A stretch of 33,687 nucleotides of DNA, taken from the NCBI GenBank assembly GCA_016784305.1, contig JADHUY010000004.1:1-33687 (forward strand). Direction: 5' to 3'. A program made the position numbers and the translations under genes. The stretch is from Parcubacteria group bacterium. Its GTDB lineage: Bacteria; Patescibacteriota; Minisyncoccia; Phycocordibacterales; JABMNX01. How positions within the stretch are numbered: the stretch's first letter is position 1; every line of letters starts with the position of its first letter. Below the pieces are notes generated by a model. It was not told the origin of the DNA. It was given only the letters and a program-made list of their open reading frames with translations, and searched no databases. Positions 16,954 through 33,687 of this stretch are shown one piece after another.

Positions 16954-17070
16954 ATGAAAGTTAAAACATCAGTTAAAAAAATGTGCACGTCGTGCAAAAG
17001 CGTAAGGCGTAAAGGACGCCTGTATGTGGTTTGTTCAGGCAATCCACGACATAAACAAAGACAAGGTTAA
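16954..17070 (+). CDS. rpmJ: 50S ribosomal protein L36 (missing from ORF track)
   Basis: [38 protein letters not shown]; CxxC..C..H zinc motif; infA-rpmJ-rpsM synteny. Confidence 0.95.
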
Positions 17071-24652: not shown

Positions 24653-24687
24653 TAAACCAGCAATTCTCTATGCCAATTGCTGGTTTA
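24653..24687. repeat. Hairpin A: TAAACCAGCAATT-CTCTATGCC-AATTGCTGGTTTA
   Basis: 13-bp perfect inverted repeat. Confidence 0.8.
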
Positions 24688-24792: not shown

Positions 24793-24829
24793 CTAAACCA
24801 GCAACCTGCTATGCAGATTGCTGGTTTAG
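24793..24829. repeat. Hairpin B: CTAAACCAGCAAcCTGC-TAT-GCAGaTTGCTGGTTTAG
   Basis: 12-bp plus 4-bp stem with one internal mismatch; same stem sequence as hairpin A. Confidence 0.8.
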
Positions 24830-27140: not shown

Positions 27141-28541
27141 ATGAAAATAAAATTTAGCGAGACAAAAGCAGAGAAACTAGCAAAACAAATCACAAAAATA
27201 GAACTAATAGAGGGAACACTTTCAAAGATTGTTGAAGATAAAGAAGGTGTTGTCCAGATTAAAATTGGGATTGGAAAGAGGGCAGACATAACTCAAAGGC
27301 GCCTAAGGATAGTAGTGCGCAAGATGGTAAGAATTGCTAAGGCGAATAAACAAAAGAAAATATCATTTGACTTTGACTCATTTCAATTCAAGAGTCTCTC
27401 TCAATTAAAAGCATTCGAGTTGGCATCACTTATTGCTGAAAATATGGACATGGCAAACTTTGAGTTTACAAAGTTTAAAACAGAACCCAAGGAGGGGTGG
27501 CTAGATGTTGAGGAAGTGACGGTGTGTGGAAGTTTTCCTAAAAGCATAAAAGACGGTTTTACGCGCGGGCAGACTGTCGCTCATGGAGTAAATAGCGCCA
27601 GAGATCTAGCAAACACGCCTGGGGGTGATATGACTCCCGCACTATTGGCTCTATCAGCAAAATCTCTAGTTAAAGGGCTAAATGTCTCAGTAAAGATTCT
27701 CAGCGAAAAAGACATGGAGAAGCTTAAGATGGGGGCAATACTTGGTGTAGCTCGTGGCTCTGACGAAGAAGCAAAGTTTATTGTCATGGAGTATTGGGGG
27801 GCGGTCAAGTCTAAAGCCCCTTTAGTTTACATCGGTAAAGGTGTCACATTTGATTCAGGGGGGATAAACATAAAACCAGGCGACGGTGCTACCGATATGA
27901 AGATGGACATGGCAGGAGGCGCTGTTGTAATAGGAGCAATTTCAACAATTGCGAAGCTTAAGTTGAAACAAAACGTTGTTGCGTTAATTCCAGCAGTTGA
28001 AAACATGGTTTCCGGTGCAAGCTATAGGCCAGGGGATGTGCTTACTTCTATGTCTGGCAAAACCATAGAAGTTTTAAACACAGATGCAGAAGGGCGTGTG
28101 GTTCTAGCTGACGCACTAACATACTCTAGAAAGTATAAACCAGCATGCGTTATTGACGTCGCCACTCTTACCGGCGCAGTACTTATTGCGCTAGGACAAC
28201 ACGCATCAGCAGTCTTGACTGCTGATGAAAAGCTACGAGATAGCTTAGTAAAATTGGGAGAGGAGAGCGGGGACTATATGTGGCCGCTTCCATTATGGGA
28301 GGAGTATGCAGAATATACTAAAGGCCAGTTTGGTGATGTTGCAAACATACCGCTTAGCAACTCACGTTACGGCGGAGTGATAAATGGTGGGATGTTTCTT
28401 AAGCAGTTTGCAGGTGGCCTAAAGTGGGCGCACATAGATATGGCCTCACGTATGACAACTATAACGAGTGACCAGTTAGCACCAGGTGCCGCTGGTGAAC
28501 CAGTTAGACTTCTCGTTAAGTTCGCAGAAGAATATAAATGA
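27141..28541 (+). CDS. pepA: M17 family leucyl aminopeptidase
   Basis: GKGVTFDSGGINIKP, NTDAEGRVVLADAL, YRPGDVLTSMSGKT. Confidence 0.95.
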   Translation: MKIKFSETKAEKLAKQITKIELIEGTLSKIVEDKEGVVQIKIGIGKRADITQRRLRIVVRKMVRIAKANKQKKISFDFDSFQFKSLSQLKAFELASLIAENMDMANFEFTKFKTEPKEGWLDVEEVTVCGSFPKSIKDGFTRGQTVAHGVNSARDLANTPGGDMTPALLALSAKSLVKGLNVSVKILSEKDMEKLKMGAILGVARGSDEEAKFIVMEYWGAVKSKAPLVYIGKGVTFDSGGINIKPGDGATDMKMDMAGGAVVIGAISTIAKLKLKQNVVALIPAVENMVSGASYRPGDVLTSMSGKTIEVLNTDAEGRVVLADALTYSRKYKPACVIDVATLTGAVLIALGQHASAVLTADEKLRDSLVKLGEESGDYMWPLPLWEEYAEYTKGQFGDVANIPLSNSRYGGVINGGMFLKQFAGGLKWAHIDMASRMTTITSDQLAPGAAGEPVRLLVKFAEEYK

Positions 28542-28555
28542 GTCCCATTAGAGGT

Positions 28556-28561
28556 TATAAT
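28556..28561 (+). promoter_or_regulatory. -10 box TATAAT upstream of the uORF/scpA
   Basis: TATAAT read directly 25 nt before the uORF start. Confidence 0.5.
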
Positions 28562-28585
28562 GGTTGTAAATTGAATAATCTGCAT

Positions 28586-28681
28586 ATGAGTAAAAACATC
28601 AATCTAACTGTCTTTACTAAAGTAACAAATGGATGCTACGGAGTCGCTTCCTACCTACCTGCCGGAAAGGCAGGTCTCTAA
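28586..28681 (+). CDS. Upstream ORF copy 1 (31 aa) ending 4 nt before scpA
   Basis: MSKNINLTVFTKVTNGCYGVASYLPAGKAGL*; indel-free homology to 33130-33225. Confidence 0.65.
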   Translation: MSKNINLTVFTKVTNGCYGVASYLPAGKAGL

Positions 28682-28685
28682 CAGG

Positions 28686-29414
28686 ATGAGTAGTTCTGGG
28701 TACATTGTAAAAACTGAAGTTTTTGAAGGTCCATTTGATTTACTTTTACAACTCATTGAGAAGAGGAAACTATTTATAAATGACCTTTCTCTTGCCCAAG
28801 TCACTGATTCATATCTAGCTCATATAAAGGAACAGAAACGCTCAGTTGGCGAGACAGCAAATTTTATTTTGGTTGCTTCAACTTTACTTTTAATCAAATC
28901 TAAATCTTTGCTTCCAGCACTGGAGCTAACAGATGACGAGGAGAGAAGCATAGAAGACTTAGAATACAGGCTTAAGCTGTACAAGCTCTTTAGAGATATT
29001 TCTATTCAGGTTAATATGCAGTTTGGGAAAAACCCACTTTTTGAAGGTGGAGAGAGACGTGAGAAAGTAATAGTTTTCTCTCCAGGGAACGATATATCAG
29101 CCACTAGTCTAATATTGTCATTAAAACAAGTTCTAACAGCAATTCCTTTAAAGGTTTTTGTGCCAGAGGCGGCTATTAAAAAAGTGGTAAGTCTGGAAGC
29201 CACGATTGAACAATTGGCAGATAGAGTTACGAAGGCTATCTCTATTAGTTTCAGAGACTTTGCTGGGATTGATAAAAATGACAAACTTCAAGTCGTAGTT
29301 AGTTTTCTAGCTATGCTTGAGCTTATAAAGCAGGGGATAATAAATGTTACGCAAAGCAATAGATTTGATGATATAACGATGGAGTCAGACGACGTTTCAA
29401 TACCAAAGTATTAA
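28686..29414 (+). CDS. scpA: Segregation and condensation protein ScpA
   Basis: YIVKTEVFEGPFDLLLQLIEKRKLFINDLSLAQVTDSYLAHI; followed by scpB. Confidence 0.93.
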   Translation: MSSSGYIVKTEVFEGPFDLLLQLIEKRKLFINDLSLAQVTDSYLAHIKEQKRSVGETANFILVASTLLLIKSKSLLPALELTDDEERSIEDLEYRLKLYKLFRDISIQVNMQFGKNPLFEGGERREKVIVFSPGNDISATSLILSLKQVLTAIPLKVFVPEAAIKKVVSLEATIEQLADRVTKAISISFRDFAGIDKNDKLQVVVSFLAMLELIKQGIINVTQSNRFDDITMESDDVSIPKY

Positions 29415-31991: not shown

Positions 31992-33083
31992 ATGATAAAG
32001 GTTGATAGAACACTTCTAATACTTACCATCATGCTAGTCGTTGGTGGATTTTTTATTTTTACCTCCGCATCACTAGGTCTTCTTGCAAGGGAAGGGGCGA
32101 GATTTTCATCCGTTGCATTTAGTCAAATTATTTTTGGTATGCTTTTTGGGTCTATTTTACTCATCGTAACTTCAAATATTCGCTACAGGAAATGGAGGAC
32201 CTACGCACTTCTCATATTTGGGCTCTCTGTCGTTTCAACATTTCTGGTCTTTGTTCCAGGATTGGGATTTGAGGCAGGTGGAGCAAAGAGGTGGCTTTCT
32301 GTGGGTTCATTTTCCATACAACCAGCAGAGTTTCTAAAGATTGGTTACGTAATTTACTTATCCGCATATCTTTCAAGTAACCGCGCCAAGACTGCAACTT
32401 TCCTACACGGTCTTATTCCATTTTTAGGGATAACCGCAGTCGCTGCAGTACCACTTCTTCTTCAGCCAGATACTGGAACTCTTTTGGTACTTCTTTCAGC
32501 TGGCACTGCAATGTTTCTTGTCGCCGGGGCGCGTCTGCGAGATTTACTTGCAACAGCATTAATTCCTATTGGTGGGGTATTAATTCTTGCCATATCAAGG
32601 CCATACGTTAGAGACAGACTGATGACGTTTCTTGACCCGTCAGCCGACCCTCTCGGAACCGGATATCAAATCCAACAATCACTAATAGCTATTGGTTCTG
32701 GACAATGGTTTGGCCGTGGGTTCGGTCAAAGTGTTCAGAAATTTAATTTTTTACCTGAACCAATTGGAGATTCGGTTTTTGCGGTATTTTCAGAGGAATT
32801 CGGATTCCTTGGCGCATTTATACTAGTATCACTTTTTTTGGCGTTTGCTTTCCGGGGCTTAAAAATAGCCTCCCAAGCCCCAGATTACTTCGGTGGACTA
32901 CTTGTCGTAGGGGTTGTTATACTTATTGTGTCGCAGTCATTTATAAATATTGCTTCAATGTTGGCTGTTCTTCCTCTTACAGGCCTTCCACTAGTATTTA
33001 TAAGTCACGGCGGGACGGCATTGTTTTTCGCACTTGGCAGTATTGGTATAGTTTTAAACGTATCAAAATATAGAAAAACATAA
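31992..33083 (+). CDS. ftsW: FtsW/RodA family peptidoglycan polymerase
   Basis: GGAKRWLSVGSFSIQPAEFLKIG, PDTGTLLVLL, FNFLPEPIGDSVFAVFSEEFGFLGA, GLPLVFISHGGTAL. Confidence 0.93.
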   Translation: MIKVDRTLLILTIMLVVGGFFIFTSASLGLLAREGARFSSVAFSQIIFGMLFGSILLIVTSNIRYRKWRTYALLIFGLSVVSTFLVFVPGLGFEAGGAKRWLSVGSFSIQPAEFLKIGYVIYLSAYLSSNRAKTATFLHGLIPFLGITAVAAVPLLLQPDTGTLLVLLSAGTAMFLVAGARLRDLLATALIPIGGVLILAISRPYVRDRLMTFLDPSADPLGTGYQIQQSLIAIGSGQWFGRGFGQSVQKFNFLPEPIGDSVFAVFSEEFGFLGAFILVSLFLAFAFRGLKIASQAPDYFGGLLVVGVVILIVSQSFINIASMLAVLPLTGLPLVFISHGGTALFFALGSIGIVLNVSKYRKT

Positions 33084-33129
33084 ATTCCGGTAGAGATAGC
33101 AAGTGGTTATTGGCAAGAATAATAAACAT

Positions 33130-33225
33130 ATGAGTAATAGCATTAAATTAGTCAATTTTATTAAAGTAATGACCGGAAGCGATAGAGTCGCCTCCCACCT
33201 GCCTGCCGAAAGGACAGGCCTCTAA
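33130..33225 (+). CDS. Upstream ORF copy 2 (31 aa) ending 4 nt before murG
   Basis: MSNSIKLVNFIKVMTGSDRVASHLPAERTGL*; indel-free homology to 28586-28681. Confidence 0.65.
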   Translation: MSNSIKLVNFIKVMTGSDRVASHLPAERTGL

Positions 33226-33229
33226 CGAG

Positions 33230-33687
33230 ATGAAAATAGTTTTTACAGGAGGCGGGACTGGTGGGCATTTCTATCCAATCATAGCAGTGGCACAATCAGT
33301 TAACGCAATAGTGGCAGAAAGGAAGCTTCTTAAGCCGGAGCTATATTACATTGGTCCTAGCCCATATAACGAGCGAGCACTTTTTGAAAACAACATTGAA
33401 TTTAAGCAAAGCCCAGCCGGCAAAATGCGTCGCTACTTTTCAATAAAAAATATCTTTGATTCTATAAAAACTTTCTTCGGAATAATAAAAGCGGTATTTC
33501 AAATCTTTTCAATTTATCCAGACGTAGTCTTTAGTAAAGGTGGCTATGCGAGTTTTCCAACCGTGCTTGCAACAAAGTTGTTCCGGATACCTCTTATTAT
33601 TCATGAATCCGACGCATCAGCTGGTCGCGTTAATAAGTGGGCGAGTACGTTTGCAAAAAAGGTTGCAGTATCGTACCCAGAAGTGGC
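33230..33687 (+). CDS. murG: MurG (UDP-GlcNAc transferase), truncated by window end
   Basis: MKIVFTGGGTGGHFYPIIAVAQ; DVVFSKGGYASFPTVLATKLFRIPLIIHESDASAGRVNKWAS. Confidence 0.95.
   Translation, partial: MKIVFTGGGTGGHFYPIIAVAQSVNAIVAERKLLKPELYYIGPSPYNERALFENNIEFKQSPAGKMRRYFSIKNIFDSIKTFFGIIKAVFQIFSIYPDVVFSKGGYASFPTVLATKLFRIPLIIHESDASAGRVNKWASTFAKKVAVSYPEV

Follow-up and report, generated by a model that had tools for sequence, protein, structure and literature searches.

Repeats in the start codons of murG and scpA of a Parcubacteria group bacterium are probably internally deleted copies of a mobile element that encodes a GIY-YIG nuclease

The window (the whole stretch of 33,687 nucleotides analysed here, from contig JADHUY010000004.1) carries two copies of a short repeat, one directly before murG and the other directly before scpA. 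In the murG copy, a 31-codon upstream open reading frame (uORF) at 33130-33225, MSNSIKLVNFIKVMTGSDRVASHLPAERTGL*, is followed by CGAG and the murG ATG at 33230; the scpA copy likewise holds a uORF of 31 codons (28586-28681, MSKNINLTVFTKVTNGCYGVASYLPAGKAGL*) that ends 4 nt before the scpA ATG at 28686. A first-pass annotation of this DNA had described the murG uORF, its spacer and the similar scpA copy, all of which are present in the sequence, and had placed the upstream edge of the repeated unit beyond the uORF start. The unit is in fact wider still, starting in the final bases of the upstream gene and ending immediately before the start codon (33085-33229 and 28543-28685), and its ends are inverted complements of each other. 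The two copies are identical at 85 of 117 positions in an ungapped alignment (73%) and are mutual best matches in a whole-genome BLAST search (E 9e-14), and the motif GTCGCNTCCNACCTNCCTGCC occurs only in these two places (0.00 expected from shuffles). The features of both copies, and two sites in the window that lack the element, are as follows:

28538..28542, + strand: left target-site duplication of the scpA copy, ATGAG; contains the pepA stop TGA
28543..28685, + strand: short mobile element in the scpA start codon, 143 bp; scpA of the same-genus genome G001 is without it
28586..28681, + strand: uORF of the scpA copy; its frame is open back to the ATG of the left duplication at 28538 (MSPIRGYNGCKLNNLHMSK...)
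28686..28690, + strand: right target-site duplication of the scpA copy, ATGAG; the scpA start
33080..33084, + strand: left target-site duplication of the murG copy, now ATAAA, read as mutated from ATGAA; contains the present ftsW stop TAA
33084..33097, + strand: 5' arm of the closing inverted repeat of the murG copy, from the covariance-model match and arm pairing
33085..33229, + strand: short mobile element in the murG start codon, 145 bp, with its ends set against the empty site in G001
33130..33225, + strand: uORF of the murG copy, read from frame statistics as a decayed element frame; its TAA lies within the 3' arm
33216..33231, + strand: 3' arm of the inverted repeat of the murG copy; contains the uORF stop and extends into the murG ATG
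33230..33234, + strand: right target-site duplication of the murG copy, ATGAA, from duplication statistics; the first bases of murG
16954..16958, + strand: empty site, the rpmJ start ATGAA without an element; occupied in G001
31992..31996, + strand: empty site, the ftsW start without an element; occupied in G001

An additional palindrome resembling ACCTGCC..GGCAGGT sits at an identical place in the scpA and murG copies and is missing from a third copy before topA, which suggests that one of the two window copies gave rise to the other within this lineage. Palindromes of the CCTGCC..GGCAGG type (28655-28675 and 33198-33219 in the window) were also seen in elements of another genome of the set, G016 (L303 1580-1800), and possibly represent another small repeat. 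The gene call for scpA in the window starts inside the element.

The short element is about 120-147 bp long and is bounded by terminal inverted repeats, with 14-bp arms (consensus ATCCCGTTAGAGAT and ATCTCTAACGGGAT) that pair at 95-100% per position across 109 copies. A search of the window's own genome (G000) with the murG copy returned a third, partial match, the topA copy, in which the outer arms, ATCCCGTTAGAG and CTCTAACGGGAT, are perfect inverted complements of each other, and an arm search added copies upstream of gatA and of two other genes, one NAD(P)H-oxidoreductase-like and one of the RND efflux type. Trained on four own-genome copies, a covariance model matched about nine copies in G000 (topA, gatA, gltX and others), seven in G001, and 15-22 in each of six closely read genomes from other families of the order; in most of the remaining genomes, G002, G004 and G005 of the same family among them, it gave no match or weak ones only. 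About 100 further copies lie in relatives. An exact-arm pattern occurs in 29 of 147 genomes of the order and a version with slightly shorter arms in 17 of 290 genomes across the phylum, against none of the 147 and one of the 290 for the reversed control pattern. Their sizes, mostly 0.4-1.2 Mb at high completeness, and their gene content indicate that these genomes belong to Patescibacteria/CPR. The exact-arm pattern favors well-kept arms, and the outer ten pairs appear near-invariant partly because the search selected such arms, so the independent evidence for pairing comes from the inner four pairs: these positions, which the search pattern did not include, are paired in 342 of 348 cells, compared with 294 (maximum 316) when partners were shuffled within genomes. 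Copies within one genome are related, and all such counts are of non-independent events. The exact-arm element was not found in the viral contigs scanned. Exact DNA patterns of the uORF motif gave chance matches only in relatives, genome contigs and viral contigs, and a search of relatives with the uORF peptide returned nothing convincing; the element is conserved in its ends and not in its peptide. Tandem copies occur, and in G095 (L233-L242) about half of the short copies, read by eye, are inverted relative to the following gene.

All but one (78) of the 79 distinct exact-arm copies in the regions read have an ATG on exactly one side; the search pattern was blind to genes and strand and ended at GGGAT, the next base, G, completing the ATG. 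Seventy of the 79 lead into open reading frames of at least 60 amino acids, and the remainder mostly into short genes or tandem copies. The target genes, named by eye from their N-termini, include topA (in several families), murG, ftsW, secE, ssb, metK, ksgA, ruvC, atpB, gltX and dnaJ, as well as genes for ribosomal proteins S4, S10, S21, L9, L31, L35 and L36. The 4-6 bp preceding the element repeat the first bases of the downstream gene, forming a target-site duplication of the form ATGNN (e.g., ATGAG at scpA, ATGGA at gatA, ATGTA at ssb and ATGG at rpsJ of G014). Where the left ATG lies five bases before the element, bases 4-5 also match the gene in 69 of 73 copies (shuffle mean 42.7, maximum 53), and in the class with four-base duplications 14 of 15 match.

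Empty sites within the genus point the same way. In G001, murG starts directly on the ftsW stop (aaatcATGAAGATAG), whereas the window reads aaaacATAAA, element, ATGAAAATAG at this place, a comparison that implies that the left duplication changed from ATGAA to ATAAA and now provides the ftsW stop. Conversely, ftsW and rpmJ are empty in G000 and filled in G001 (tttttttgtATGAAAGTTAAAAC versus tttttttatATGAA-element-ATGAAAGTCAAAAC), so that within one genus the empty sites are reciprocal: murG and scpA in G001, ftsW and rpmJ in G000. Target-site duplication and insertion polymorphism with empty sites, both marks of MITEs (miniature inverted-repeat transposable elements), are found here, and the duplications together with the reciprocal empty sites indicate that the murG "leader" is an insertion and not an inherited regulatory cassette. 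The first-pass annotation had suggested that the unit could be a leader cassette tuning the amount of MurG, a reading that the comparison does not bear out, since G001 is without the unit at murG and scpA, carries it elsewhere, and target-site duplications flank it.

A search allowing wider-spaced arms found two elements of about 285 bp with the same ends, before tal in G067 and before murG in G016. This full-length form, about 280 bp with inverted-repeat ends, contains one gene, for a GIY-YIG nuclease: the G067 protein matches PF01541 (Pfam E 6e-18), and a match to the UPF0213 protein PDB 1zg2 has E 7e-5. At the tal and murG loci, the protein (MNPVRD...) starts at the left ATG, the target gene's own, and its frame ends on a TGA overlapping the restored ATG of the next gene. 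GIY-YIG proteins of this type occur in 95 of the 147 genomes of the order, and about ten of 30 loci read have the same or closely related ends, a start-codon position and duplications; full-length forms were seen at the start codons of tal, murG, ftsW, xth and others, and G001 has one between pheS and pheT. In some full-length elements the ends have changed yet remain complementary to each other (CCCGTACG/CGTACGGG). Purifying selection acts on the protein (median dN/dS 0.18 over 30 usable pairs; 2018/1503/3688 differences at codon positions 1/2/3), and the catalytic residues Y16, R24 and E62 are invariant at 14 loci. Among further GIY-YIG loci, 24 of 32 have flanking inverted repeats of at least 10 bp, about 15 of them clearly above the shuffled maximum, to which 10-bp repeats lie near and 12-22 bp repeats do not. 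GIY-YIG genes at L355, L365, L367 and L347 lie between inverted repeats of 13-22 bp that differ in sequence from the present ends, and are probably sister subfamilies with other targets. No full-length partner with the present ends was found in the window's own genome (92% complete); its one GIY-YIG locus read has no flanking inverted repeat, and a group I intron lies close to that open reading frame (L348 229-478).

The short copies look like internal deletions of the full-length element. The distance from the ATG to the motif ACGGAAAC in G016 is 94-95 nt both in the long form and in the short forms that retain it, and the short forms are without about 157 nt of the nuclease gene. In G001, the inner hairpin of the short copies (GGAAGCG..CGCTTCC) matches the long form at two places that lie apart. 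Internal deletion of a longer element with the same ends, a further mark of MITEs, is present in this 157-nt gap. Given this relationship, the uORF is best read as a remnant of the nuclease frame. In the scpA copy this frame remains open from the left ATG, and 20 copies in all have a frame running from the left ATG as far as the TAA. A uORF of at least 15 codons that starts with ATG and ends at a TAA 4 nt before the gene occurs in 51 of 87 non-redundant copies, compared with 6.6 expected from dinucleotide-shuffled sequence and 7 when the reverse complement is read; in a further 7 of 109 copies the uORF ends in an ATGA overlap. There is no recognisable uORF in 31 of 109 short copies, and coupling therefore cannot be the sole route to translation of the gene. 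The peptide itself is under no purifying selection (116/101/104 differences at codon positions 1/2/3 among the copies of one genome) and thus is not a sensed leader peptide, but retention of an intact uORF in many copies makes an effect on translation of the next gene plausible. Sequence around the start codon is covered by the closing helix, the inner pairs of which co-vary. Taken with the uORF enrichment and the unconserved peptide, this start-covering, co-varying helix favors sequence-independent coupling, in which translation of the uORF likely promotes translation of the downstream gene. Of 91 copies, 40 have a -10-like TANNNT 3-11 nt upstream of the element, most commonly at 6-7 nt, compared with a mean of 25 after shuffling, and transcripts may accordingly start at the element.

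Several candidate identities were rejected. An amino-acid attenuator with a leader peptide is ruled out by the lack of a third-position excess and of peptide selection noted above. No known Rfam cis-regulatory RNA matches in the window or at six element loci searched at E up to 1, where the only hits were tRNAs and two sub-threshold matches in one locus. Integron attC sites were dropped because the GTTAG/CTAAC arms face the opposite way.

We conclude that the repeat is probably a short derivative, with an internal deletion, of a mobile element whose insertion target is the start codon. The sequences show that insertion duplicates 4-6 bp from the ATG of the target gene onward, and the duplicated ATG lets the element take the gene's former start as its own (MNPVR...); the element frame ends at the second ATG or 4 nt ahead of it, and the host gene continues to start at this second ATG. 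Short forms retain the ends, the inner hairpin and, in most cases, a frame that is open as far as the gene. The GIY-YIG nuclease may cut the target and drive movement of full copies and, in trans, of short ones; we infer this role from its conservation between the ends, and the long form is presumably autonomous. Ribosomes translating the frame may open a helix that would otherwise mask the gene's start codon and re-initiate there, which could be why insertions in genes such as murG, topA and secE (essential in most bacteria) are tolerated. Counting against this overall reading are the failure to find a full-length partner in the own genome, the short copies with no recognisable uORF, the inverted copies in G095 and the established roles of GIY-YIG nucleases.

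Alternatively, these could be ordinary MITE-like elements moved by a conventional transposase encoded elsewhere, with the GIY-YIG gene a captured passenger. We consider this rather unlikely: the anatomy (inverted ends, a short direct duplication, deletion derivatives) fits, as does the failure to see, in the own genome, a GIY-YIG partner that shares these ends. However, GIY-YIG genes recur with inverted flanks of many different end sequences, and purifying selection on the protein argues against a passenger. Furthermore, inspection by eye between matching ends found only the GIY-YIG gene and no transposase-like or other open reading frame, and at 13 loci whose ends are unpaired or widely spaced none resembling a transposase was seen. 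The possibility that two leaders resemble each other by chance, to which the modest identity would be congenial, has a negligible probability, being refuted by the genome-wide E value, the roughly nine own-genome copies and the approximately 100 in relatives.

Two further explanations, both improbable in our judgment, concern the RNA. A vertically inherited cis-regulatory leader (an attenuator or translation-coupled switch) controlling housekeeping genes would account for the arm helix over the start codon with its compensatory changes, for uORF enrichment, and for the recurrence of the same genes (topA, murG, secE, L31) across families. Nevertheless, target-site duplications and reciprocal empty sites within the genus already refute an inherited origin of the element, and tandem copies, the two orientations in G095 and the lack of peptide selection and of an Rfam match add to the case against it. 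The other holds that the element is trimmed from the mRNA, for instance by RNase III cutting the long stem to leave a nearly leaderless mRNA, with the uORF irrelevant. The 14-bp closing helix and further stems would suit such processing, the -10-like TANNNT would allow transcripts to start at the element, and rRNA intervening sequences cut by RNase III have been discussed for CPR (PMC11270868); yet trimming would not need a uORF that is over-represented and strand-specific. Trimming by RNase III, though improbable, is nevertheless a serious alternative.

MITEs such as MITEAba12 (PMC6382973) and pneumococcal BOX and RUP (PMC3049150) resemble the present element: they are short, non-coding or nearly so, multicopy, with inverted ends and short direct duplications, and derive from a longer coding element. 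In contrast to them, nearly every copy here occupies a start codon and re-creates it, the gene of the longer relative is for a GIY-YIG nuclease and not a transposase, and an open frame into the gene is often kept. IStrons (PMC4227781) are likewise mobile elements with a built-in device that renders insertion into a gene harmless, but there the device is self-splicing, whereas here it would be translation coupling at the restored start codon. GIY-YIG homing endonucleases and UPF0213 proteins share the same small catalytic domain; homing, however, needs a homologous allele, and the copies here, in many unrelated genes whose insertion sites share only ATGNN, do not fit a homing endonuclease element.

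The nearest published observation is that of uncharacterised GIY-YIG insertions in CPR rRNA genes, which fit neither group I nor group II introns and were judged by the authors not to spread by homing, alongside many other insertions of <200 bp without an open reading frame (PMC11270868). One GIY-YIG locus here is comparable: at L343 1501-1749, a GIY-YIG open reading frame with a flanking 20-bp inverted repeat lies within a 23S rRNA gene. Some of those rRNA insertions may belong to the present family. Start-codon targeting and deletion derivatives were not found described in that paper, the main text of which does not contain the words inverted repeat or start codon. No description of the element family was found in open-access literature on inverted repeats, MITEs and uORFs in Patescibacteria.

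GIY-YIG nucleases have established roles in nicking or homing and are not known to act as transposases. There is perhaps an even chance that the family constitutes a new class of element, one whose sole protein is a GIY-YIG nuclease of about 90 amino acids, which targets start codons, borrows and then returns the host ATG, and has short derivatives that, moved in trans, cover housekeeping-gene 5' ends throughout a phylum of bacteria with reduced genomes. If so, a widespread mobile element of a few hundred bases hits the start codons of essential genes without killing the cell, and GIY-YIG nucleases become candidates for transposition and not for homing only. Such an element would also explain spurious N-terminal extensions in gene calls, as at scpA in the window, and would offer an identity for some of the uncharacterised GIY-YIG and short insertions in CPR rRNA genes (PMC11270868).

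Two other features were observed in this genome. A GcrA-like open reading frame, recognised by eye, lies upstream of topA (L062 1706-2194, - strand). In the dnaJ-trpS interval of the window, two 35-bp near-palindromes unrelated to the element (24653-24687 and 24794-24828; TAAACCAGCAA...TTGCTGGTTTA) stand 141 bp apart.
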